From Gammaproteobacteria bacterium (lineage in GTDB: Bacteria; Pseudomonadota; Gammaproteobacteria; DSM-26407): a DNA stretch of 11,287 nucleotides. The stretch is from the NCBI GenBank assembly GCA_028694565.1, contig JAQVKR010000044.1:1-11287 (forward strand), in the 5' to 3' direction. This document shows, in pieces, positions 1-11,287 of the stretch. Within the stretch, counting starts at the first letter, position 1. Every line of letters begins with the position of its first letter. The notes under the pieces are model-generated. The model had not been told where the DNA came from. It ran no database searches and saw only the letters and a list, made by a program, of their open reading frames with translations. A program made the translations under genes and the position numbers.

Positions 1-673
1 CGAGGAGGCCCGCCGCGGCACGCGGCGCACCCTGGTCCGGGTGCTGGAGGCCCTGCTGCGCCTGGCCCATCCGCTGATGCCCTTCATCACCGAGGAGATC
101 TTGCAGCGCGTGGCGCCGCTGGCCGGCAAGTCCGGCGCCACCATCATGCTGCAGCCCTATCCGCAGGCCGAGGCCGGAAAGGAGGACGGGCAGGCGGTCG
201 CGGACATGGAGTGGGTGCAGGCCTTCATCGTCGGGGTGCGCAGCATCCGCGGGGAGATGAACATCGCCCCCGGCAAGCCGCTGGCCGTGCTCCTGGACCA
301 TGGCGGTGACGAGGACCGGCGGCGCCTGGAGGAGAACCGGGCCTTCCTCGCCACCCTCGCCCGGCTGGAATCGGTGGCCTGGCTCGAAGCGGGCGCCCCG
401 GCGCCGGTTTCCGCCACCGCCCTGGTCGGCTGGATGCGCATCCTGATCCCCATGGCCGGCCTCATCGACAAGGATGCCGAGCTCGCCCGCCTGGGCAAGG
501 AGATCGCCCGCCTGGGCAAGGACCTGGAGCGCGCCGAGGGCAAGCTGGCCAATCCCAGCTACGTCAACAAGGCGCCCGCCGAGGTGGTGGAAAAGGAGCG
601 GCAACGGGCGCTGGAGCTGCGCTCGGCCCTGGAGAAGCTGGGGGCGCAGAGGGCCCAGATCGAGACCTTGTGA
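1..673 (+). CDS. valS: Valyl-tRNA synthetase, C-terminal part (5' end outside window)
   Basis: This is the last ~223 residues of the class I synthetase that charges tRNA-Val in the cytoplasm; the reading frame enters at base 2 and stops with TGA at 671-673. What is seen: the anticodon-binding region with the family signature 'RLAHPLMPFITEEI' (bases ~59-100), a 'VRSIRGEMNIAPGK' block (~235-279) typical of ValS, and a charged C-terminal coiled coil from ~460 to the end, in which the heptad 'ARLGK' occurs twice. That C-terminal arm contacts tRNA in known ValS structures. The catalytic core (HIGH/KMSKS) lies upstream of the window. No coding gene follows on this strand for 329 bases, so it appears to end its transcription unit. 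Recognition is from conserved sequence and is very secure. Confidence 0.96.
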   Translation, partial: EEARRGTRRTLVRVLEALLRLAHPLMPFITEEILQRVAPLAGKSGATIMLQPYPQAEAGKEDGQAVADMEWVQAFIVGVRSIRGEMNIAPGKPLAVLLDHGGDEDRRRLEENRAFLATLARLESVAWLEAGAPAPVSATALVGWMRILIPMAGLIDKDAELARLGKEIARLGKDLERAEGKLANPSYVNKAPAEVVEKERQRALELRSALEKLGAQRAQIETL

Positions 674-865
674 CGATCCGCCCGGACGGCCGCCGGGGCA
701 TGGGCGCGCCGTGAAGGAGCGCCCGCCCGGGCGCGTCCCGGAACAGCCGGCCCGGGGCTCCACCCGCCTCCGGCCCCGGGATCCCGGCCTCGGGCGGGGA
801 TAAGGGATTGGCGCCGATCGTCCGGCGGGCTGCCGGCGCTCAGCCGCCCCGCCGGCGGCGGTTAC

Positions 866-881
866 TGTGATACCCTTCACG
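866..881 (+). promoter_or_regulatory. CRP/Clp-type site upstream of rpfG
   Basis: The sequence TGTGA-TACCCT-TCACG matches the CRP-family consensus TGTGA-N6-TCACA at 9 of 10 half-site bases. Its centre (873.5) is about 60 bp upstream of the start inferred from the promoter at 898-927, the class I activator position. A site of the same class stands upstream of rpfF. Binding is inferred; the half-sites are directly visible. Confidence 0.6.
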
Positions 882-897
882 GGGCTTTACATCGGCG

Positions 898-927
898 TTG
901 GTCACCGTCCCGGGATGGGGCTACATT
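898..927 (+). promoter_or_regulatory. Candidate sigma-70 promoter of rpfG
   Basis: A -35-like TTGGTC at 898-903 and a -10-like TACATT at 922-927 are separated by 18 bases, predicting a start near 934 and a leader of about 69 bases. Both hexamers are imperfect (3/6 and 4/6), which would fit activator dependence. Chosen by eye. Confidence 0.4.
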
Positions 928-956
928 TATCGAGACCGCAGCCGTATTTTTTCGAC

Positions 957-972
957 AATGCAGCGCTGCATT
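957..972. repeat. 16-bp perfect palindrome in the rpfG leader
   Basis: AATGCAGC followed directly by its reverse complement GCTGCATT. It lies between the inferred rpfG start of transcription and the start codon. It could be a dimeric repressor operator or, in RNA, a 6-bp hairpin with a GCGC loop about 30 bases before the ATG. Function unknown. Confidence 0.6.
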
Positions 973-1002
973 CCAGCCATGTCACGGGGCCGCGCACGGA
1001 TC

Positions 1003-2064
1003 ATGTCAACCGTTCTCATCGTCGACGACCAGTTCACCAGCCGCAAGATCCTTGCCGAGCTTGTGCAGAAGATTGAAAACGGTCTCGACATCGTCACCTT
1101 CGCCAATCCCCTGGAAGCGCTGGAATGGTCCCGTGAAGCCCAGGCGGATCTGGTCATCACGGACTACAAGATGCCCGAGCTCGACGGGGTCGAGTTCACC
1201 CGCCGGTTCCGGGCCACGCCTCTCGGGGCCGACATTCCCCTGGTGGTGATCACGGTGGTGGAGGATCGCAACATCCGCTACCAGGCGCTGGAGGCCGGCG
1301 CCACCGACTTTCTCACCAAGCCCATCGACCACTACGAGGTCCAGGCGCGCTGCCGCAACCTGCTCACCCTGCGCCGCCAGCAGCGCATCATCAAGGATCG
1401 CGCCAAGTGGCTGGAGCAGCAGGTGGCCCTGGCCACCGCCGAGATCCGCACCCGCGAGTACGAAACGCTCCTGCGCCTGGCCAAGGCCGGTGAATACCGT
1501 GATGTGGACACCGGCAACCACGTGTTGCGCATGGCCAAGTACTCCCGCCTGATCGCCGACCAGCTGGGACTGCTGCCCCAGGAGAGCGAGGTGATCGAAC
1601 AGGCGGCGCCGATGCACGATATCGGCAAGATCGGCATTCCCGACAGCATTCTCCTCAAGCGGGGCCGGCTGACGGACCGGGAGCGCGAGGTCATGAAGGC
1701 CCATACCCGGATGGGTTACGAGATACTGAAGGGCAGTCCCTCGAAGTACCTGCAGATGGGGGCGGTCATCGCCCTCAACCACCACGAGCGTTACGACGGC
1801 AGCGGTTATCCGCAGGGGCTCGCCGGCGACCGCATTCCCCTTGCGGCCCGCATCGTGGCGGTTGCCGACGTCTACGACGCCCTGACCACCGTCCGTCCCT
1901 ACAAGCCCGCCTGGTCCAGCGAAGACGCCATGGACTACCTCACCACCCAGATCGGCCGCCATTTCGATCCCCGCTGCGTGGAAGCCTTCCTCTCCGACCA
2001 CAACCGGGTCTTCGAGGTGCAGCGCCAGCTGCCCGACATGGGGCGGCTCGAAGAAGCCGAGTGA
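1003..2064 (+). CDS. rpfG: RpfG-type response regulator, c-di-GMP phosphodiesterase (REC + HD-GYP)
   Basis: Cytoplasmic response regulator of 353 aa that, by family knowledge, hydrolyses cyclic-di-GMP when phosphorylated by RpfC, turning the DSF signal into a fall in c-di-GMP. Residues ~1-125 are a receiver domain: acidic pair D8-D9, phosphoacceptor D54 in 'TDYKMPELDG', and K106 in 'FLTKP'. A helical linker (~128-160) leads to an HD-GYP domain with H173, the 'HDIGKIGIPD' motif (H205-D206), 'HHERYDGSGYP' (260-270, GYP at 268-270) and 'ADVYDAL', so the catalytic set looks complete. I chose the ATG at 1003 because 'MSTVLIVDDQ' is how RpfG proteins begin. In-frame ATGs at 958 and 979 would add non-homologous residues, and none of the three has a good Shine-Dalgarno. 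It lies 199 bases upstream of rpfC on the same strand. A generic RpfG-like regulator is the alternative, but the neighbours favour the ortholog. Confidence 0.93.
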   Translation: MSTVLIVDDQFTSRKILAELVQKIENGLDIVTFANPLEALEWSREAQADLVITDYKMPELDGVEFTRRFRATPLGADIPLVVITVVEDRNIRYQALEAGATDFLTKPIDHYEVQARCRNLLTLRRQQRIIKDRAKWLEQQVALATAEIRTREYETLLRLAKAGEYRDVDTGNHVLRMAKYSRLIADQLGLLPQESEVIEQAAPMHDIGKIGIPDSILLKRGRLTDREREVMKAHTRMGYEILKGSPSKYLQMGAVIALNHHERYDGSGYPQGLAGDRIPLAARIVAVADVYDALTTVRPYKPAWSSEDAMDYLTTQIGRHFDPRCVEAFLSDHNRVFEVQRQLPDMGRLEEAE

Positions 2065-2226
2065 TCGGTCACGTCCCGGAACACCCGGGCTTGTGCTATC
2101 TATTTGTTTAGGCTTTACTTTGCCAAAGCGAGCGGCGGATCCCGAACGCCGGGTGAAACGCTGCGCGGACTGGGGTATCTTCAGCGGTGCCGCCTCCTGC
2201 AGGGGCAGCGGCCTTGAGTGACCCCT

Positions 2227-2242
2227 GTTGACAGGTTTCAAC
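2227..2242. repeat. Inverted repeat just upstream of rpfC
   Basis: GTTGA-CAGGTT-TCAAC is a perfect 5-6-5 dyad ending 21 bases before the rpfC ATG. It overlaps a second dyad, CCTGT-TG-ACAGG (2224-2235), and contains a perfect TTGACA with no matching -10 at the right distance. It could be an operator or an RNA structure near the ribosome-binding site; no function is demonstrated. Confidence 0.45.
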
Positions 2243-2263
2243 CGAGAGACCGAAGAGAGCTCG

Positions 2264-4822
<2,559 letters not shown>

Positions 4823-4904
4823 TCCCCCCGTCGCACCGGCAACGCGGACAGGGGCGCGCGGGCCGGCGGCCCCGAGGCGCCGTTCCCGCGGCGTCCAATC
4901 ATCC

Positions 4905-4934
4905 ACCGGCGGCTGAGCTCTCTCAGCCGCCGGT
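4905..4934. terminator. Bidirectional hairpin terminator between rpfC and rpfF
   Basis: Perfect 13-bp inverted repeat ACCGGCGGCTGAG / CTCAGCCGCCGGT with a CTCT loop, centred in the 212-base gap between the two convergent stop codons. The + side is followed by TCGTTCG, a weak U-tract; the - side has no clear T-run. Position and stem strength make it a likely shared terminator that keeps the rpfC and rpfF transcripts apart. Confidence 0.75.
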
Positions 4935-5034
4935 TCGTTCGCCAACCGGCCGGACCTGGACGACAGGGGCGTTCCGGCCCTGTTCCCGGAGCGCGTCGTC
5001 TTTTCGCGGCGGGCTCAGCCCTGCGGCGAGCGCG

Positions 5035-5940
5035 TCAGGCCACTTCGTGGGCGCTCTCGCCCTTCTTCTGCTCGCTGAAGGCCTTGTCCTGGGCCCGCAC
5101 GAGCCGCTCCATCACCTTCAGGTCCTTGGCCTCCAGCTGCATGGCCGCATCGACCCAGATGCGGGTGATGTCCATCAGCTCGGCATGGGTGACGGGGTTG
5201 TAGCGCTGGCGCACCCGCTGCATGGCCAGCTGGCCGATTCGGGAACGGCTGTGCTTGCGCACATAGCGGTAGACCTCCTCCTCGCCCTCTCCCTCCTCGG
5301 CGAGAACGTCCACGACGCCCATCTCGAACAGCTCCTCCGCGGTATGTATCCGGCCGCTCAGAATCAGCTGCTCGGCGCGGATGGGATCGATGCGGCGCGC
5401 CAGCAGGCTGTAGGCGCCCATGCCCGGGAACAGGTTGAACAGAATCTCGGGCAGTCCCATCTGGGAACCGCGCTCGGCGATCACCACGTGGCTGGACAGG
5501 GCCGCCTCGAAGCCGCCGCCGAGGGCCTGTCCCTTGACCAGGGAGATGGTGGTCAGCGGCAGGTTGTAGTTGATGGAGTTGGGGAACAGAACGTCGATGC
5601 AGGCGGTGGCGTACTTCAGCAGGCCGGTGCGATCCCGCTCCCGGATCAACGACATGAACAGGTTGAGATCCCCGCCGAGATTGTAGACGCCCGGCACATC
5701 GGACGTCAGCACCTGGTAGTTGACGGGAAGAAGCTCACCGTTGGCCGGGAAACGGCCGCCGTGGTTCTCCAGAATGCGCTGGTACTTGCGCAGGTCATCG
5801 AGCAGGCGTGGCGTGAAACAGGGACGCGGAGCGGAATGCATGTAGAGCCAGATGATGCCGTGCTCCACGTCGAAACGGGTGGTCAGCTGCTCGTAGTAGG
5901 CCTGGACACTGCCCTGGAACTTCTTGCTTTCAAAAGACAT
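5035..5940 (-). CDS. rpfF: RpfF, DSF synthase (crotonase-fold acyl-ACP dehydratase/thioesterase)
   Basis: Cytoplasmic 301-aa enzyme. By family knowledge it acts on 3-hydroxyacyl-ACP, dehydrating it and releasing a cis-2-unsaturated fatty acid (diffusible signal factor). The crotonase signature 'GQALGGGFEAALSS' contains E145, and 'MGLPEILFNLFPGMGAYSLLARRI' contains E165. The 20-residue spacing matches the catalytic glutamates E141 and E161 of Xanthomonas RpfF. 'YNLGGDLNLF' (86-95) is the oxyanion-loop region. The length is close to Xanthomonas RpfF (~289 aa). The start at 5940 is fixed by a strong Shine-Dalgarno AAGGGGG (5947-5953, 6-base spacing); a longer frame to 6054 lacks support. It is convergent with rpfC, as in Xanthomonas. 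Upstream it has its own candidate promoter and a perfect CRP-type site. An ordinary enoyl-CoA hydratase is unlikely because the LFNLFPGMGAYS block and the rpfG-rpfC neighbours are specific. Confidence 0.95.
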   Translation of the reverse strand: MSFESKKFQGSVQAYYEQLTTRFDVEHGIIWLYMHSAPRPCFTPRLLDDLRKYQRILENHGGRFPANGELLPVNYQVLTSDVPGVYNLGGDLNLFMSLIRERDRTGLLKYATACIDVLFPNSINYNLPLTTISLVKGQALGGGFEAALSSHVVIAERGSQMGLPEILFNLFPGMGAYSLLARRIDPIRAEQLILSGRIHTAEELFEMGVVDVLAEEGEGEEEVYRYVRKHSRSRIGQLAMQRVRQRYNPVTHAELMDITRIWVDAAMQLEAKDLKVMERLVRAQDKAFSEQKKGESAHEVA

Positions 5941-6043
5941 TGCGAACCCCCTTGGTACGCTGGTGGTGCGTTGAGTGGACTGGCAAAGATCAAAAAAGTA
6001 CATCTGAAACAGGCACATAGAAGAGCCTTTTTGCATTGACCCA

Positions 6044-6071
6044 AGTATGGGCAATGGGGGGGTAAAAGCAA
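6044..6071 (-). promoter_or_regulatory. Candidate rpfF promoter
   Basis: On the minus strand, TTGCTT (6066-6071) and CATACT (6044-6049) are separated by 16 bases, predicting a start near 6037 and a leader of about 97 bases. The weak -35 would suit activation from the CRP-type site just upstream. An alternative pair, TTGGGT (6039-6044) and TCTATG (6016-6021) with 17 bases between, fits the CRP spacing less well. Confidence 0.4.
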
Positions 6072-6087
6072 ATGTCCACGCTCTCCG

Positions 6088-6105
6088 ATGTGACGCAGTT
6101 CACAT
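6088..6105 (-). promoter_or_regulatory. Perfect CRP/Clp-type palindrome upstream of rpfF
   Basis: ATGTGA-CGCAGT-TCACAT is an exact match to the CRP-family consensus TGTGA-N6-TCACA, with one further symmetric base on each side. Its centre (6096.5) is about 60 bp upstream of the inferred rpfF start, the class I activator position. No gene starts on the plus strand nearby, and the neighbouring nagZ reads toward rpfF and ends 189 bases away, so rpfF is the natural target. Confidence 0.72.
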
Positions 6106-6264
6106 TTCGGATGTGCGGAGCCCATTCGTCGCCGTCGACCGCCGCGGCGCGGGCCGTCGCACCCGTCGCGGGCGGGCGCATCGGCGCGGGGAAATGGGCG
6201 CGGGGCGTCGCTCCGCCGCACGGTGCGAAAACGGCCGGGAGCGCGATGAATCAGGCACCTGCCC

Positions 6265-6278
6265 GCCCGGAGCCGGGC
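6265..6278 (-). terminator. Hairpin directly after the nagZ stop
   Basis: GCCCGG-AG-CCGGGC abuts the nagZ stop codon (6279-6281). It has no T-run downstream on the minus strand, so it is at best a weak or Rho-assisted terminator. It would help separate nagZ from the rpfF promoter region. Confidence 0.35.
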
Positions 6279-7322
6279 TCAGACCAGGTCGAGTGACTGG
6301 GGCGGTTCGAGTCCGGCCACGGCGTTGACCGCCTGTTTCCAGGCCTGGGACTGCATCAGTTCGGCGCGCAGGGGCGCGGGCCGGCCGTGCAGACGGACCA
6401 GGCGCAGATGCGAGGTGGGATCGTCGTGGTGGCGGAGTCGGTCCAGCACCCGGTGGGTGGCGGCCCGGTCGTTGCAGACCAGCACCATGTCGCAACCGGC
6501 CTGCAGGGCGAGCTCGGCCGCGGATTCCGTATCGCCGGCCACCCGGGCCCCCTCCATGGTCAGATCGTCGCTGAAGATGACGCCCTGGAAGCCGAGCCGC
6601 CGGCGCAGGATCTCCTGCAGCCAGTGCCGCGAGAAACCCGGTGGCATGGGATCCACGCGGGGATAGACCACATGGGCGGGCATGATGGCCGCGAGCCCGT
6701 TCCGGCACAGCCGCTCGAAGGGCACCACGTCCTCCAGCAGCAGCTCCTCGAGCCGGCGCTCGTCGCGGGGAATGTCCACGTGCGAGTCGGCGGCCACCGA
6801 GCCGTGACCGGGGAAGTGCTTGCCGGTGGCGGCCATGCCGGCCCGGTGCATCCCCTCGATCCATGCCTGGGCCAGCCGGGTGACCGTGTCCGGCAGGCGG
6901 TGAAAGGCGCGGTCGCCGATGACTTCGCTGAGACCCCGCCCCAGATCGAGAACCGGCGCCAGGCTGAGATCCACGCCCACCGCGCGCAGTTCCGCGGCCA
7001 TGAGCCAGCCGCCGGTCTCCGCCAGGCGCAGCGCGCGCTTGGGTTCCTGTTCGAACAGCGCCCCGAGCCGCGCGGCGGGGGGTATCCGGGTGAACCCCTC
7101 GCGGAACCGCTGGACCCGCCCCCCCTCCTGGTCCACCGCCACCAGGAGACGCGGTTCGCGCAGGGCGTGGATTTCCGTCACCAGCGCCTGGATCTGCTCC
7201 GGATCGCTGAAGTTGCGGCTGAACAGTATCACGCCCCCGACCGCCGGGTGGCGCAGCAGTTCGCGCTCCTCGGCATCCAGATGGAGTCCCTGCAGGTCCA
7301 GCATCACGGGCCCCAGTGACAT
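6279..7322 (-). CDS. nagZ: Beta-N-acetylhexosaminidase (glycoside hydrolase family 3)
   Basis: Cytoplasmic GH3 enzyme of 347 aa. In peptidoglycan recycling it removes GlcNAc from GlcNAc-1,6-anhydroMurNAc peptides. Visible family motifs are 'VAVDQEGGRVQRF' (61-73), 'LAPVLDLGR' (121-129), 'KHFPGHG' (168-174) followed by 'DSHVDIP' (179-185, catalytic-loop His), and 'FSDDLTMEGA' (250-259), which carries the nucleophilic Asp. There is no signal peptide, as expected. I chose the ATG at 7322 because GGGAG (7328-7332) is well placed before it and because NagZ proteins begin with a short run leading into 'MLDLQG'. An upstream ATG at 7364 would add 14 unrelated residues. It lies 115 bases after the DUF1820-like gene on the same strand and could share its transcript. 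The 338 bases to rpfF argue that rpfF is not part of this unit. Confidence 0.95.
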   Translation of the reverse strand: MSLGPVMLDLQGLHLDAEERELLRHPAVGGVILFSRNFSDPEQIQALVTEIHALREPRLLVAVDQEGGRVQRFREGFTRIPPAARLGALFEQEPKRALRLAETGGWLMAAELRAVGVDLSLAPVLDLGRGLSEVIGDRAFHRLPDTVTRLAQAWIEGMHRAGMAATGKHFPGHGSVAADSHVDIPRDERRLEELLLEDVVPFERLCRNGLAAIMPAHVVYPRVDPMPPGFSRHWLQEILRRRLGFQGVIFSDDLTMEGARVAGDTESAAELALQAGCDMVLVCNDRAATHRVLDRLRHHDDPTSHLRLVRLHGRPAPLRAELMQSQAWKQAVNAVAGLEPPQSLDLV

Positions 7323-7351
7323 GGCCTCTCCCACCCCCTGTTCGATTATTG

Positions 7352-7366
7352 CCGTGCTGTGCACGG
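7352..7366 (-). repeat. Hairpin in the nagZ leader
   Basis: CCGTGC-TGT-GCACGG (6-bp arms, 3-base loop) lies about 30 bases upstream of the nagZ ATG. It could be an RNA hairpin in the leader or an operator; no T-run follows. Confidence 0.35.
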
Positions 7367-7417
7367 GATGATTACGGATTGATGACGGGGGGGCAAGGGG
7401 AACGGAGCCGCCGTGCC

Positions 7418-7434
7418 GGCCGGTGCCGCCGGCC
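7418..7434 (-). terminator. GC hairpin after the DUF1820-like gene
   Basis: GGCCGG-TGCCG-CCGGCC lies four bases beyond the stop of the DUF1820-like gene on the minus strand. The 6-bp all-GC stem has no T-run, so it may be a partial terminator, an mRNA 3' stabiliser or chance in GC-rich DNA. Confidence 0.3.
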
Positions 7435-7437
7435 CCG

Positions 7438-7782
7438 TCAACGTGTTCCGGGGCCTTTCTCCGGCGGCGGAACGGGGAACGGGAACGGCGTGACCACGGC
7501 CGATTCGCCGAGTTCGATGACCTTGGCCGGACCCTCGCGATCCACCTCGTCGATGCGCACCACCGAGTGCAGCGGGATGAGGGTGCGCGACACGCCCTGG
7601 AACTCGCTTTTCAGGCGCTCCTCCACGGGATCCACCAGCAACGCGCTCTTCTCGCCGAACACCAGTTCCTCGACTTCCACAAACCCGAACAGCGAACCCT
7701 GGGAAACCTTGCGCGCATAGATTTCATACAGGGAGCCCTGGTTGTGGAACATGACCTTGAAGAGACGTTGCTGGGTGGTCAT
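7438..7782 (-). CDS. DUF1820-family small protein
   Basis: A 114-aa protein of unknown function that resembles the DUF1820 family of gammaproteobacteria as I recall it. The conserved blocks are 'LFKVMFHNQGSLYEIYARKV', 'GFVEVEELVFGE', 'LLVDPVEERLKSEFQGV' and 'IPLHSVVRIDEV'; the last 20 residues are proline-rich and variable. It is soluble, with no signal peptide or membrane segment. The ATG at 7782 is immediately followed by the conserved N-terminus, although no strong Shine-Dalgarno is visible. It sits between the L,D-transpeptidase-like gene (111-base gap) and nagZ (115-base gap), all on one strand. No function is known to me, and context alone does not justify assigning a cell-wall role. 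Confidence 0.85.
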   Translation of the reverse strand: MTTQQRLFKVMFHNQGSLYEIYARKVSQGSLFGFVEVEELVFGEKSALLVDPVEERLKSEFQGVSRTLIPLHSVVRIDEVDREGPAKVIELGESAVVTPFPFPVPPPEKGPGTR

Positions 7783-7893
7783 CTGGCGCGGATCCCGGCT
7801 GCCGGAACGGACCGCCAGAATAGCACAGCCGGCGCATCCGGGATGGCCTCCGCCGCCGTCCGGCGGGCGCGGGCGCTGGCTTCCACGGCGGAA

Positions 7894-8370
7894 CTACTCG
7901 ACGACGAGGACCCGCGTGCCCGCCGGCGTGCGGTCGAACAGTTCCACCAGATCGCGGTTGCGCATGCGTATGCAGCCATGGGACAACGGCACGCCCATGG
8001 GCAGCTCGTCCGGGCAGCCATGGATGTAGATATAGCGGCGCATGGTATCCACGGCCCCGAGGCGGTTGCGTCCCGGTTCCAGGCCGCTCAGCCACAGGAT
8101 GCGGGTCAGTATCCAGTCGCGGTCGGGATGGCGGGCGCCCAGCTCGGGCGTGTAGATCTCCCCGGTGGGACGACGGCCGACGAAGACCGTGCCGAGCGGG
8201 CAATGATCGCCGATCCGGGCGCGGACCTGGTGCAGCCCCCGCGGCGTACAGCCGCTGCCGGAGCGCTCGCCGGCACCGTTGCGGGCGGTGGAAACGGGAT
8301 ATTCGAGCCGCGCCCCGTCCCGCTCCAGGGCCAGCCGCTGGTGGCTAAGATCGACAACAATCCGTGGCAT
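7894..8370 (-). CDS. L,D-transpeptidase family (YkuD domain) protein, no signal peptide
   Basis: A 158-aa protein made almost entirely of a YkuD catalytic domain. The signature spans 'YIHGCPDELPMG' (H117) to 'SHGCIRMRNRDL' (H131, catalytic C133, R135). N-terminal family blocks are 'IVVDLSHQRLALERDG' and 'YPVSTARNGAGERSGSG-TP'. L,D-transpeptidases normally make 3-3 peptidoglycan cross-links or attach proteins in the periplasm, but this protein starts directly at the first strand of the domain with no signal peptide or anchor. The homologous N-terminus places the ATG at 8370 with confidence. A TACACT (8378-8383) stands 7 bases upstream and could be a -10 box giving an almost leaderless mRNA, though no convincing -35 is seen. 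It may lead a unit with the DUF1820-like gene and nagZ. Substrate and location remain open. Confidence 0.9.
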   Translation of the reverse strand: MPRIVVDLSHQRLALERDGARLEYPVSTARNGAGERSGSGCTPRGLHQVRARIGDHCPLGTVFVGRRPTGEIYTPELGARHPDRDWILTRILWLSGLEPGRNRLGAVDTMRRYIYIHGCPDELPMGVPLSHGCIRMRNRDLVELFDRTPAGTRVLVVE

Positions 8371-8916
8371 GTGCGCTAGTGTACCCGCTTCGCCCGTGAA
8401 GGCGCTTCCAGAGCCGCCCCGAAAGCGCCTGGACGAGGCGCAGCGCAGGCAATGGCCCCGTTCCCTCGCCGAGCGCCGCGAGGCGGCCCTGTCCCCTGTC
8501 CGGCCGCTGCGCCGGAATGTGGGTGTTGCGCCGCATCAGCCTGGCATACCCGCCGGACGCCGGCAAAACCGCGCCCGGAACGTCGCGCCGGGCCCCGGGT
8601 GAGGCGCGGAGCGCGGCTTGATCACGCAGGCAACGCGGCTGCCGGTGAAATCCGCTCCGGGCGCGGCGGCCGAGGTGCTCCGATCCGGATGCGGGGTGGG
8701 CGGTGCCGGCGCGGGTCACGGAAGGCTTGCAATCCACCGCAAAGACACCTATTTGGTAAGGGACGCGGGCCGAAGCCGCGCCGCGCCGGCCCCGAATCTC
8801 CGGACGCGCACCGCATCACGGGCCCGCGCACAATGCGGGGAACGCCGGATGTTCTTTCAGGGGTGACGCAGTACACTGGGACCACAGGGGTTCACTGGAT
8901 GATGGAGGATGCAGTC
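8371..8916. other. Long intergenic region, no gene recognised
   Basis: About 546 bases separate two divergent genes. Open frames here (for example a minus-strand frame at 8345-8737 and the long in-frame extension of the downstream gene from 8452) are Arg/Pro/Gly-rich and look like GC-driven shadows. I found no tRNA and no complete riboswitch. 'GCCGGTGAAATCCG' near 8640 recalls a cobalamin-riboswitch segment, but the rest of that element is missing. Two weak candidate promoters for the downstream gene are TTGCAA (8727-8732) with TATTTG (8750-8755), 17 bases apart, and a lone TACACT at 8872-8877. Confidence 0.5.
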
Positions 8917-9216
8917 ATGGCCGAAAGCTACCGTCCCGTCGTTGGTGAATGGTACTGCAACCTCGAAACGGGCGATCTGTTCGAGGTGGTCGCCCTGGAC
9001 GAGGACAGCGGCACCATCGGCATCCAGTATTTCGAGGGTGAAGTGGAGGAGATCGACTCCGATACCTGGACCGAGCTGATGCTCGAGCCCAGCGCGGAGC
9101 CCGAGGACTGGTCCGCGCCGTTTGACGACCTGGAACGGGAGGAAATCAACTACGGCGAAGCCCAGCGTCCGGAAAACTGGTCAGGCCCCTTCAACGACAT
9201 CGACCTGGAAGACTGA
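8917..9216 (+). CDS. DUF6763-like small acidic protein
   Basis: A very acidic 99-aa cytoplasmic protein of unknown function. The N-terminal half ('YRPVVGEWYCNLETGDLFEVV', then 'IGIQYFEGEVEEIDSDTW') looks like a small beta-rich domain that I associate with the DUF6763 family of gammaproteobacteria; the family name is from memory. The C-terminal tail repeats a short motif: 'PEDWSAPFDDLE' (~66-77) and 'PENWSGPFNDID' (~86-97). The start at 8917 is set by GGAGG at 8904-8908 with 8 bases of spacing; ATGs at 8899 and 8902 overlap or precede this site. The frame is open far upstream to 8452, but that stretch has no conserved character. It is flanked by a divergent L,D-transpeptidase-like gene and a convergent universal-stress-like gene, so it appears monocistronic. 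Confidence 0.85.
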   Translation: MAESYRPVVGEWYCNLETGDLFEVVALDEDSGTIGIQYFEGEVEEIDSDTWTELMLEPSAEPEDWSAPFDDLEREEINYGEAQRPENWSGPFNDIDLED

Positions 9217-9315
9217 CGCTTCCGCCCTCCCCCTATCCTCCCCGCCCGGCAGCCGCGGCGCGGCGACGGCGCTTCGCGCCCCGGGGCTCAAGGACCTGGC
9301 CGCTGCGCCGAGGCC

Positions 9316-9340
9316 CCGGGTTCGTGCGGTTGGAACCCGG
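9316..9340 (+). terminator. Candidate terminator between convergent genes
   Basis: CCGGGTTC-GTGCGGTTG-GAACCCGG is a perfect 8-bp stem with a 9-base loop, followed on the plus strand by CTTTCC. It lies in the 149-base gap between the two convergent stops (9216 and 9366). The T-tract is short, so efficiency is uncertain. Confidence 0.5.
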
Positions 9341-9365
9341 CTTTCCGCGATCCGCCGGCCGGATG

Positions 9366-10238
9366 TCAGCGTATCAACAGGAGCGAACAGCTCAACCCGC
9401 CCAGCAGGCGCTCGGTGATTTCGAGAGCGGTGCTCATGCCGCGGGCGGGGGCATGGGTCACCAGGATCCGTCCCTGCTCGGCTTCCACCGCGCGCTGCAG
9501 CATCCCGGGTGAAGTACCCTGAATGAACAGGAAGCGCGCCTGCGCCCCCTGCCGTTCCAGCCACTGCCCGGCCAGGTCGCGCAGGGACTCGGCTTCCGCT
9601 CCACCGGGCTGCGGTATCAGCACCACCAGCCCGTCCCGTTCCCGACGGGCCAGCTGAAGTGCCGCGGCCAGCGCGCGGAAAGAGGGCTCGCCGCCGTCGA
9701 ACAACACCAGCACCGGCCGTCCGGGCGGCGCCTTCCGCCCGACCAGCAGCGGCGTTTCCGGCGCCGACTCCAGGATTCGCCGCAGATTGCTGCCGATGAT
9801 GCGGCGGTGGGGATTTCCTCCCCGGCCCACCACGACCAGATCGGCGTCCCGGGCCGCAAGAAGCAGTTCCGCGACGATCTGCCCGCGCACCACCCGCAGC
9901 GAACCGGCGATCCGTCCGCGCCGGAGGTTCTGGCGCAGCAGCCGCTCTATCAGCCGGACCTGGGCCCGCAGGCTCTGCTCCAGCTGCAGGGCGTCCAGGC
10001 GGCGCGGCATGCCCGAGGAGAGGCCCACCTCGCGGGTGAAGGGCAGCTCCGCGAGACGCAGCAGATTGGCATCCTCCACGAACAGGCCGAGCAGCTCGGC
10101 CCGGTCGCGGACCGCCAGCTCGACGGCCGCCTCCAGCGCCTCCCGGCTGTGGGGCGAGGCGTCCAGGGCCACGAGTATGCGGCGGAACACCCGGGTATCG
10201 CCGGACCCCGGATCAGGAGGGTTCGCCGCCGGAGTCAT
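9366..10238 (-). CDS. Universal stress protein (UspA) family, two-domain
   Basis: A 290-aa soluble protein. Residues ~17-167 form a Usp domain: 'FRRILVALDASPHSREALEAAVELA', 'LLGLFVEDANLLRLA', and a nucleotide-loop-like 'VVVGRGGNPHRRIIGSNLRRIL' followed by 'TPLLV'. The usual G-2x-G-9x-G(S/T) ATP-binding spacing is shortened by two residues here, so ATP binding is doubtful. Residues ~173-290 ('RPVLVLFDGGEPSFRALAAALQLA' to 'LLGGLSCSLLLIR') look like a second, more diverged Usp-like half. Usp proteins are generally stress-linked regulators; the specific role is unknown. The ATG at 10238 has GGAG (10246-10249) 7 bases upstream and lies inside the end of the Lon-related gene (26-base overlap), which suggests translational coupling. 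Confidence 0.85.
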   Translation of the reverse strand: MTPAANPPDPGSGDTRVFRRILVALDASPHSREALEAAVELAVRDRAELLGLFVEDANLLRLAELPFTREVGLSSGMPRRLDALQLEQSLRAQVRLIERLLRQNLRRGRIAGSLRVVRGQIVAELLLAARDADLVVVGRGGNPHRRIIGSNLRRILESAPETPLLVGRKAPPGRPVLVLFDGGEPSFRALAAALQLARRERDGLVVLIPQPGGAEAESLRDLAGQWLERQGAQARFLFIQGTSPGMLQRAVEAEQGRILVTHAPARGMSTALEITERLLGGLSCSLLLIR

Positions 10239-11142
10239 GCTTGTGCTCCATCAGCTCGAGGCGCAGGTGGTAGAGTTCGTCGAGGCGATCATCCACCCGG
10301 CGGTTGAGGCTGCCCTCCGGGTATCTGCCCCCGCTGTCGGCCTCCCCCGCCGGCAGCCCGGTCAGCAGGGCGGCGGCCTGGTCCACCGTCTCCACCGGGT
10401 AGACATGGAACCGGCCTTCGCGACAGGCCGCGACCACATCCTCGCGCAGCATGAGGTGGGGAACGTTGGTGCGCGGGATCAGAACGCCCTGCTCCCCCGT
10501 CAGCCCGCGGGCGGCGCAGATGTCGAAGTAACCCTCGATCTTCTCGTTGACGCCGCCGATGGCCTGCACCCGGCCGTGCTGGTTGACCGAGCCGGTAACG
10601 GCGAGCGACTGCTTCACCCCGGCGCCGGACAGGGCCGAGAGAAGGGCGCAGAGCTCCGCCACCGACGCGCTGTCGCCCTCCACCATGCCGTAGGACTGTT
10701 CGAACACCAGGCTGGCGGACAGGGACAGGGGCCGGTCGCGGGCGTAGCGGGCGGCCAGGTAGTGGGACAGGATGAGCACGCCCTTGGAGTGGATGGAGCC
10801 GCCCATTTCCACCTCGCGCTCGATGTCCACGACCTCCCCCTCGCCGAAGCGGGCGGTGGCGGAGATGCGCGAGGGCTGGCCGAAGGCGAAGTTGCCGAGA
10901 TCGATGACCGACAGCCCGTTCACCAGCCCCACCTCGACACCCTCCGTTCGGATGTTGATGGTGCCGCGCTGGATCTCGGCATAGATGCGCTCACGCAGTC
11001 GGTCCGAGCGGTGGATGCGGGCGTCGATGGCGCTCTGTATGTCCGGCCGCGTGATGGCCCCGTGCCCGGCCTCCGAGGCGTAGTGATGGGCTTCCCGGAG
11101 CAGATCCACGATGTTGCCCACGTGGGCGGCGGGGACGCGCAT
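10213..11142 (-). CDS. Lon-related ATP-dependent protease, C-terminal proteolytic part only (5' truncated)
   Basis: 309 aa that correspond to the end of the proteobacterial Lon-related protease family (AAA_32 plus Lon_C, ~800 aa; AsrA/YcbZ-like). Visible features are 'VDLLREAHHYASEAGHGAITRPDIQSAI' from the AAA lid region, a long linker, and a complete Lon proteolytic domain: 'MVEGDSASVAEL' with catalytic S158 and 'IGGVNEKIEGYF' with K201. The whole ATPase part with Walker motifs is missing. The codon immediately before the first ATG (11143-11145 on the minus strand) is TAG, and the DNA beyond encodes a different protein on the other strand, so the gene is really cut here. The ATG at 11142 has no Shine-Dalgarno, and the first ~8 residues ('MRVPAAHV') may not be native. 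It overlaps the downstream Usp gene. Either a decayed or rearranged gene or an assembly chimera is possible. Confidence 0.8.
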   Translation of the reverse strand: MRVPAAHVGNIVDLLREAHHYASEAGHGAITRPDIQSAIDARIHRSDRLRERIYAEIQRGTINIRTEGVEVGLVNGLSVIDLGNFAFGQPSRISATARFGEGEVVDIEREVEMGGSIHSKGVLILSHYLAARYARDRPLSLSASLVFEQSYGMVEGDSASVAELCALLSALSGAGVKQSLAVTGSVNQHGRVQAIGGVNEKIEGYFDICAARGLTGEQGVLIPRTNVPHLMLREDVVAACREGRFHVYPVETVDQAAALLTGLPAGEADSGGRYPEGSLNRRVDDRLDELYHLRLELMEHKHDSGGEPS

Positions 11143-11287
11143 CTACGGCAAGCAGGGCTGCCCGCACACCGAACGCGCGCGCAGGGCCCTGCCCGGCGCG
11201 GCGTTCATCGACGTGCTGGCCGACCCGGCGCGGCTTGAGGAGATGCTTGCGCTCTCCGGCGGCGTGCGCCGCGTGCCGGTGATCGTG
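11111..11287 (+). CDS. Glutaredoxin-like UXX-star-type protein, Cys form (3' end outside window)
   Basis: A plus-strand frame of 59 codons reaches the window edge. From 11138 it reads 'RIYGKQGCPHTERARRAL', then 'FIDVLADPARLEEMLALSGG' and 'RRVPVIV': a thioredoxin-fold, glutaredoxin-like start with one Cys in the motif G-C-P-H-T, then helix 2 and the cis-Pro segment VPVIV. This pattern fits the UXX-star (seleno)protein family, in which many members have selenocysteine at that position; here the codon is TGC (Cys). The family assignment is from memory. The first in-frame ATG is at 11111, with GGAG at 11097-11100, but the nine residues it adds are atypical and overlap the truncated Lon-related gene antisense. 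The native start may have been lost at the junction near 11112-11138. Confidence 0.72.
   Translation, partial: MLPTWAAGTRIYGKQGCPHTERARRALPGAAFIDVLADPARLEEMLALSGGVRRVPVIV

Follow-up and report, generated by a model that had tools for sequence, protein, structure and literature searches.

Signalling through the diffusible signal factor (DSF) was first described in Xanthomonas, where rpfGHC is convergent with rpfBF according to the available text of three sources (PMC4504480, PMC3749722, PMC8357829). The available portion of a 2015 review also names rpfF-rpfG-rpfC clusters in Methylophaga, Leptospirillum, Thiobacillus and Methylobacillus (PMC4504480), and excerpts of another article report work on DSF signalling in leptospirilli (PMC8357829). 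Here, we analysed a stretch of 11,287 nucleotides from a gammaproteobacterial assembly (GCA_028694565.1, contig JAQVKR010000044.1; hereafter the window) that carries the genes rpfG, rpfC and rpfF. The genome to which the window belongs (G000) comprises 3.0 Mb in 511 contigs and is 88% complete. Its sister genome (G001), 99% complete, is the sole member of the same genus among the 56 genomes compared.

The rpfG gene (positions 1003-2064, forward strand) encodes a response regulator with an HD-GYP phosphodiesterase domain (Pfam Response_reg and HD_5/HD), and rpfC (2264-4822, forward strand) encodes a membrane hybrid histidine kinase (HisKA, HATPase_c, Response_reg and Hpt). Convergent with them lies rpfF (5035-5940, reverse strand), encoding a predicted DSF synthase of the crotonase family (ECH_1/ECH_2). 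All three frames are intact, as a preliminary description of this DNA had reported, and the residues it listed are in place: E145 and E165 in RpfF, H203, D635 and H789 in RpfC, and D54, H205-D206 and GYP at 268 in RpfG. Judging from the predicted proteins, it is very probable that the window encodes a complete RpfF/RpfC/RpfG module like the one originally described from Xanthomonas. Such a system is known and common, and the new part would be its regulation: both rpf transcription units are probably under CRP-type promoters, for which we found candidate sites.

We scored the CRP-type box pattern TGTGA-N6-TCACA at zero, at most one or at most two mismatches. The box before rpfF, TGTGAACTGCGTCACA (6089-6104, reverse strand), is perfect and centred 156.5 bp before the ATG; in G001 one core base is changed and the half-sites are unchanged. 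The box before rpfG, TGTGATACCCTTCACG (866-881, forward strand), has one mismatch, is centred 129.5 bp before the ATG and is identical in G001. These two are the only boxes with at most one mismatch in the window, one before each transcription unit, where 0.10 were expected and 2 of 200 shuffled sequences reached two. In 20 kb of G001 we likewise found two boxes, at the same two places only (0.28 expected; 4 of 200 shuffles reached two). Perfect boxes number 7 genome-wide in G000, the rpfF box among them, and 11 in G001, while the reversed pattern gave none in either genome. With one mismatch allowed there are 21 and 44 boxes, respectively (reversed pattern, 5 and 9), so that the rpf boxes make up 2 of 21 in G000 and likewise 2 of 44 in G001.

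Of the perfect boxes, we inspected the neighbourhoods of 8 (of 11) in G001 and of 6 (of 7) in G000, where the remaining one is that of rpfF itself. By eye, the candidate targets belong to the OmpW, porin, outer membrane protein beta-barrel, DUF1631, DUF3417, MASE1 and 2-hydroxyacid dehydrogenase families, and one is a fabI-like gene. Near some perfect boxes, for example those of L138 and L144, we recognised no plain target.

Alignment of the upstream regions to G001, with gaps scored as mismatches, revealed that high conservation starts at the box in both cases. Upstream of rpfF, 134 of 189 columns agree in the part ahead of the box and 164 of 180 in the part that begins with it; upstream of rpfG, the corresponding values are 121 of 227 and 141 of 150. 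The spacer between rpfC and rpfF has 125 of 286 columns alike. Possible -10 elements, chosen post hoc, are TACATT for rpfG (922-927, forward strand), 48.5 bp after the box centre, and CATACT for rpfF (6044-6049, reverse strand), 47.5 bp after it. Both spacings are near the class I spacing. The roughly 150 bp from the box to rpfF (5941-6088), with TTGCCCATACTTGGGTCAA across the possible -10 element, are near-identical in G001, and a second regulator site within this segment is possible.

We also surveyed 400-bp upstream regions of 87 rpfF and 48 rpfG genes of the locus and its relatives. A box with at most one mismatch was present in 11 of 87 rpfF and 4 of 48 rpfG regions, or 9 of 85 and 2 of 46 when the window and G001 were removed. 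The controls gave 13 of 940 for other open reading frames (at least 200 codons) and 1.0% for random windows. In the regions free of N, 9 of 85 for rpfF compare with a shuffle mean of 0.88 (largest value 4 in 60 rounds), and 4 of 45 for rpfG with a mean of 0.37 (largest 2). On the RpfF tree described below, the rpfF box label needs at least seven changes, which points to several gains or losses of the box.

A candidate regulator is encoded in the genome. Matches to PF00325 number five in G000 and 11 in G001. One of the five in G000 (L118, 1459-2094, reverse strand) is of the CRP/Vfr type, scoring 312 bits against Vfr (7few), 288 against CAP (1g6n) and 217 against 3iwz, which we take to be Xanthomonas Clp. 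It also passes the NCBIfam model for cyclic AMP (cAMP)-activated CRP (349 bits, cut-off 266), its C-terminal DNA-binding part matches closely, and its gene adjoins genes that by eye resemble trpC and osmC. A regulator of the Clp type was considered and rejected, since the protein is nearer to Vfr and CAP than to 3iwz.

We searched both genomes for adenylate cyclases of class I (PF01295) and class III (PF00211) and found none; that search did not extend to the N-terminal domain of class I or to further classes. Both genomes have a CRP/Vfr-type protein (L118 and L119), with no cyclase of either class found. A class IV search gave one CYTH protein in G001 and none in G000, and this result is not telling because CYTH was also matched in 11 of 14 control genomes.

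Several of these results weigh against CRP control of the rpf genes. Besides the negative search for class I and III cyclases, 76 of the 87 rpfF upstream regions have no box at one mismatch or fewer. Among the nearest named relatives, L026 has no rpfF box and L025 only one with two mismatches. At two mismatches or fewer the excess shrinks (rpfF 23 of 87 and rpfG 15 of 48, compared with 97 of 940 controls). A sigma-70 scan of the window listed neither the rpfF nor the rpfG promoter, the -10 spacing is not common to most box-bearing relatives, and the rpfG -10 element has an equal-scoring alternative at +80.5. The boxes might then be chance matches, or sites for another CRP/FNR-family protein, at a locus without special CRP input; the other PF00325 matches in both genomes are proteins that could bind, and the boxes without a recognised target, as at L138 and L144, fit this explanation as well. 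It sits poorly, however, with the share of each genome's boxes that stands at the rpf promoters, compared with the counts for the reversed pattern, and with the climb in conservation at the box in both upstream regions. The OmpW, porin and DUF3417 genes near other perfect boxes and the closely matching DNA-binding part of the encoded CRP/Vfr protein also speak against it. We regard this alternative as rather unlikely, and CRP-type promoters on both rpf units as the probable reading.

Since no class I or III cyclase was found, the regulator may sense a ligand that is not cAMP. In the available text, cyclic di-GMP (c-di-GMP) inhibits Xanthomonas Clp, which is placed downstream of RpfG (PMC3749722, PMC9040794), and part of a review places Clp and c-di-GMP at the promoter of rpfB (PMC13220807). 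In principle, then, input from the CRP family into a DSF locus has precedent. A literature search at the level of titles and abstract beginnings, with most subscription journals outside its coverage, gave none that dealt with CRP or Vfr control of rpfF and turned up no direct CRP boxes on both rpfF and rpfGC. One article among its matches, on the TetR-family regulator TfmR, mentions the rpfF promoter a single time (PMC6637906). A more far-reaching idea is that signal synthesis and sensing are both direct targets of a CRP/Vfr-type protein, in a genus with no class I or III cyclase found, and that the ligand might be c-di-GMP, closing a loop. If so, DSF sensing, through the c-di-GMP destroyed by RpfG, would feed back on rpfF and rpfGC. 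We hold this idea only tentatively and think it unlikely.

The idea that the arrangement is unusual was not supported. We scanned one genome per species with an RpfF profile and kept the best 80 of at least 550 confirmed stretches, which restricts the counts to the closest relatives; together with 8 further relatives and the window, 89 loci were examined. The complete layout, with rpfG and rpfC convergent with rpfF, occurs in 46 of 89 loci and in 41 of the 80 named ones, and it is also the orientation of xanthomonads. In 14 loci rpfC is convergent and the contig stops before the position of rpfG, and in 8 it is convergent with no rpfG beside it. The remainder have another order (3), neither gene in the flanking DNA (15) or a contig that ends after rpfF (3). 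Given this frequency and the published clusters, the locus belongs to a known kind. The adjacency of nagZ and rpfF is also seen at L031 and L038, two loci of the sister clade, which is mostly Nitrosomonadales and Gallionellaceae.

Other arrangements were seen among the relatives. Three loci (L032, L035 and L050) have a full-length valS-like frame just downstream of rpfF on the opposite strand, and their flanking DNA contains neither rpfC nor rpfG. In five loci (L056, L061, L064, L087 and L098; four metagenome-assembled genomes (MAGs) of Krumholzibacteriia and one uncultured bacterium), rpfF is convergent with a lower-scoring RpfC-like kinase (309-345 bits) that has a DEExxQ-type sensor motif, and no rpfG lies beside the pair in the flanking DNA. 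On large plasmids of Methylobacterium and Sphingomonas (L131 and L132), rpfF stands beside a convergent EAL-domain gene, which resembles the RpfR arrangement.

RpfF scored 387 bits against NCBIfam PRK08788 (cut-off 177). Its best relatives in the PDB are 7zq7, deposited as a crotonase-family protein, 3m6m and 6dgn, both RpfF, and 5fus, after which the scores drop from 194 to 56 bits at the next structure. We take 3m6m to be a Xanthomonas protein, and 6dgn and 5fus are presumably from Burkholderia. Phylogeny had been put forward as the check on whether RpfF is an ordinary enoyl-CoA hydratase, and in a tree of 111 rows it falls in the DSF-synthase clade instead. This clade is separated from the outgroup of 14 other crotonase-family rows (three of which span under half of the tree columns) with support of 100/99 by a branch 4.35 changes per column long. 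Within it, the window RpfF groups at 96/95 with G001, two MAGs of gammaproteobacteria and eleven further rows; nine of these eleven are titled Nitrosomonadales, Gallionellaceae or Ferrovaceae. The two xanthomonad-type rows are elsewhere in the tree, and the Burkholderia row is on a long branch, so its placement is unsure. The locus had been proposed as an uncharacterised DSF system outside Xanthomonas: the separation of its RpfF from the xanthomonad-type rows agrees with this, whereas the type of system is known and common. The other four RpfF matches in G000 are partial and reach at most 47.3 bits, compared with 671 for rpfF itself.

The receiver domain of RpfC has its best PDB match in 3m6m_D, 'Sensory/regulatory protein rpfC' (99.5 bits; 79.9 for the next), and 3m6m is the RpfC receiver crystallised together with RpfF. 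We also examined the putative DSF-sensing N-terminus (residues 1-29; 2264-2350, forward strand), which contains D20-P21-E22-x-x-Q25 and R29. In the available text of one study, R15, D17, S18, E19 and Q22 of Xanthomonas RpfC are required for a full DSF response, and changing S18 to Ala lowered that response (PMC5391125). Their equivalents here, set by the motif in that text and not by an alignment with the full Xanthomonas RpfC, are Q18, D20, P21, E22 and Q25, so that D, E and Q are kept (3 of 5). We aligned 59 RpfC N-termini, admitted only if they matched that of the window at E 1e-5, and among the 58 with letters at the motif, E22 is present in 56, D20 in 41, and Q25 and R29 in all.

Three results weigh against the DSF reading of these proteins. 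At 258.1 bits RpfF is below the cut-off of 550 for the NCBIfam RpfF equivalog NF053515 and is not filed under it. In RpfC, P21 stands in place of S18 and Q18 in place of R15. The Kyte-Doolittle profile of RpfC has four peaks above 1.4, not the five transmembrane helices described for the Xanthomonas input region in the text available (PMC5391125). The first two would agree with RpfF being an ordinary crotonase, a fatty-acid hydratase or thioesterase of lipid turnover, and with RpfC and RpfG sensing something else. This is hard to reconcile with the long, well-supported branch that sets the RpfF clade off from the other crotonase-family rows, with a convergent rpfC adjoining rpfF in 68 of 89 loci (46 + 14 + 8) and with the retention of both E145 and E165, and we consider it very improbable. 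RpfF is, on its sequence, a member of the DSF-synthase clade that keeps both catalytic glutamates.

The gene order of the window is valS (3' end), rpfG, rpfC, rpfF, nagZ, DUF1820, an L,D-transpeptidase-type gene (7894-8370), DUF6763, a universal-stress gene (9366-10238) and a truncated Lon-like gene. Family models identified both genes with coordinates here as well as the nagZ, DUF1820, DUF6763 and Lon-like flanks; valS, named by eye, was recognised by its match to a full-length frame in G001. The valS, nagZ, DUF1820, DUF6763 and Lon-like flanks are the ones given in the preliminary description, which rightly set them apart from those described for Xanthomonas, as the window has no rpfB or rpfH. 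The nagZ gene (6279-7319, reverse strand; NCBIfam PRK05337, 484 bits, cut-off 207) lies upstream of rpfF on the same strand; it is a neighbour of rpfF and outside the DSF module. In G001 RpfF is 96% identical and the gene order is the same, which indicates that the locus is not a product of chance.

At the contig end, about 145 bases (11143-11287) interrupt the Lon-like gene; their forward reading is glutaredoxin-like by eye, a query of 11130-11287 found no match in G001, and the segment is probably a wrong join. That the locus as a whole was joined in assembly from different organisms, a suspicion that this broken end and a bin in 511 contigs at 88% completeness might raise, is scarcely conceivable, since an 818-kb contig of G001 carries these genes, from valS to the Lon-like one, in unchanged order, which contradicts a mixed assembly for 1-11142. 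A plasmid origin was rejected as well: among 603 matching plasmid records, 14 span 80% or more of the query, and the best listed identity is 48%. We found no mobile-element families among the nine window proteins scanned with family models and no known RNA elements in the window at Rfam gathering thresholds. Terminator-like sites (4, compared with 3.8 in shuffles) and sigma-70-like sites (1, compared with 0.6) were no more frequent in the window than chance.

Taken together, the following model can be proposed. RpfF would convert 3-hydroxyacyl-ACP (acyl carrier protein) into a cis-2-unsaturated fatty acid, and the N-terminus of RpfC at the membrane edge would sense it. A phosphorelay would then run from H203 through D635 and H789 to D54 of RpfG, and RpfG would in turn hydrolyse c-di-GMP. 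Without ligand, RpfC probably binds RpfF through its receiver and restrains the synthase, as it does in the complex from Xanthomonas. A CRP-type promoter whose box lies near -60 is probably present on each unit; by binding there, in a direction we can only presume, the CRP/Vfr-type regulator of the genome would couple both the making and the sensing of the signal to the physiology of the cell. If the boxes work, they would offer a testable link between physiology and DSF at the signal genes themselves, not downstream, where Clp reportedly acts. DSF genes are now seen in another gammaproteobacterial genus, and two features, the convergent layout of rpfGC and rpfF and the E-x-x-Q motif in the sensor part of RpfC, prove common far outside Xanthomonas.

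Compared with the described systems, the Burkholderia one shares a homologous synthase (6dgn, 5fus), but its sensor is RpfR, a PAS-GGDEF-EAL protein according to the review text (PMC4504480), where the window has RpfC and RpfG. With Xanthomonas, the locus shares the same three proteins, their domain orders, the convergent orientation and the catalytic residues, and the RpfC receiver is nearest to 3m6m. It differs from Xanthomonas in having neither rpfH nor rpfB, and in an RpfF that is under the equivalog cut-off and elsewhere in the tree. Regulation also differs, as the genome has a CRP/Vfr-like protein rather than Clp and the boxes are on both rpf units. The clusters of the Methylophaga, Thiobacillus, Leptospirillum and Gallionellaceae type have the same genes. 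Among them, the Leptospirillum cluster is one-directional in the available text (PMC8357829), whereas that of the window is convergent; L072, a Nitrospirae MAG that groups with a Leptospirillum row, is one-directional as well. Most of the rpfF upstream regions surveyed (76 of 87) have no box at one mismatch or fewer, unlike the window. Nevertheless, the complete convergent layout is shared with 41 of the 80 named loci, the RpfF clade of the window (96/95) includes Gallionellaceae and Nitrosomonadales, and nagZ adjoins rpfF in L031 and L038 as it does here.

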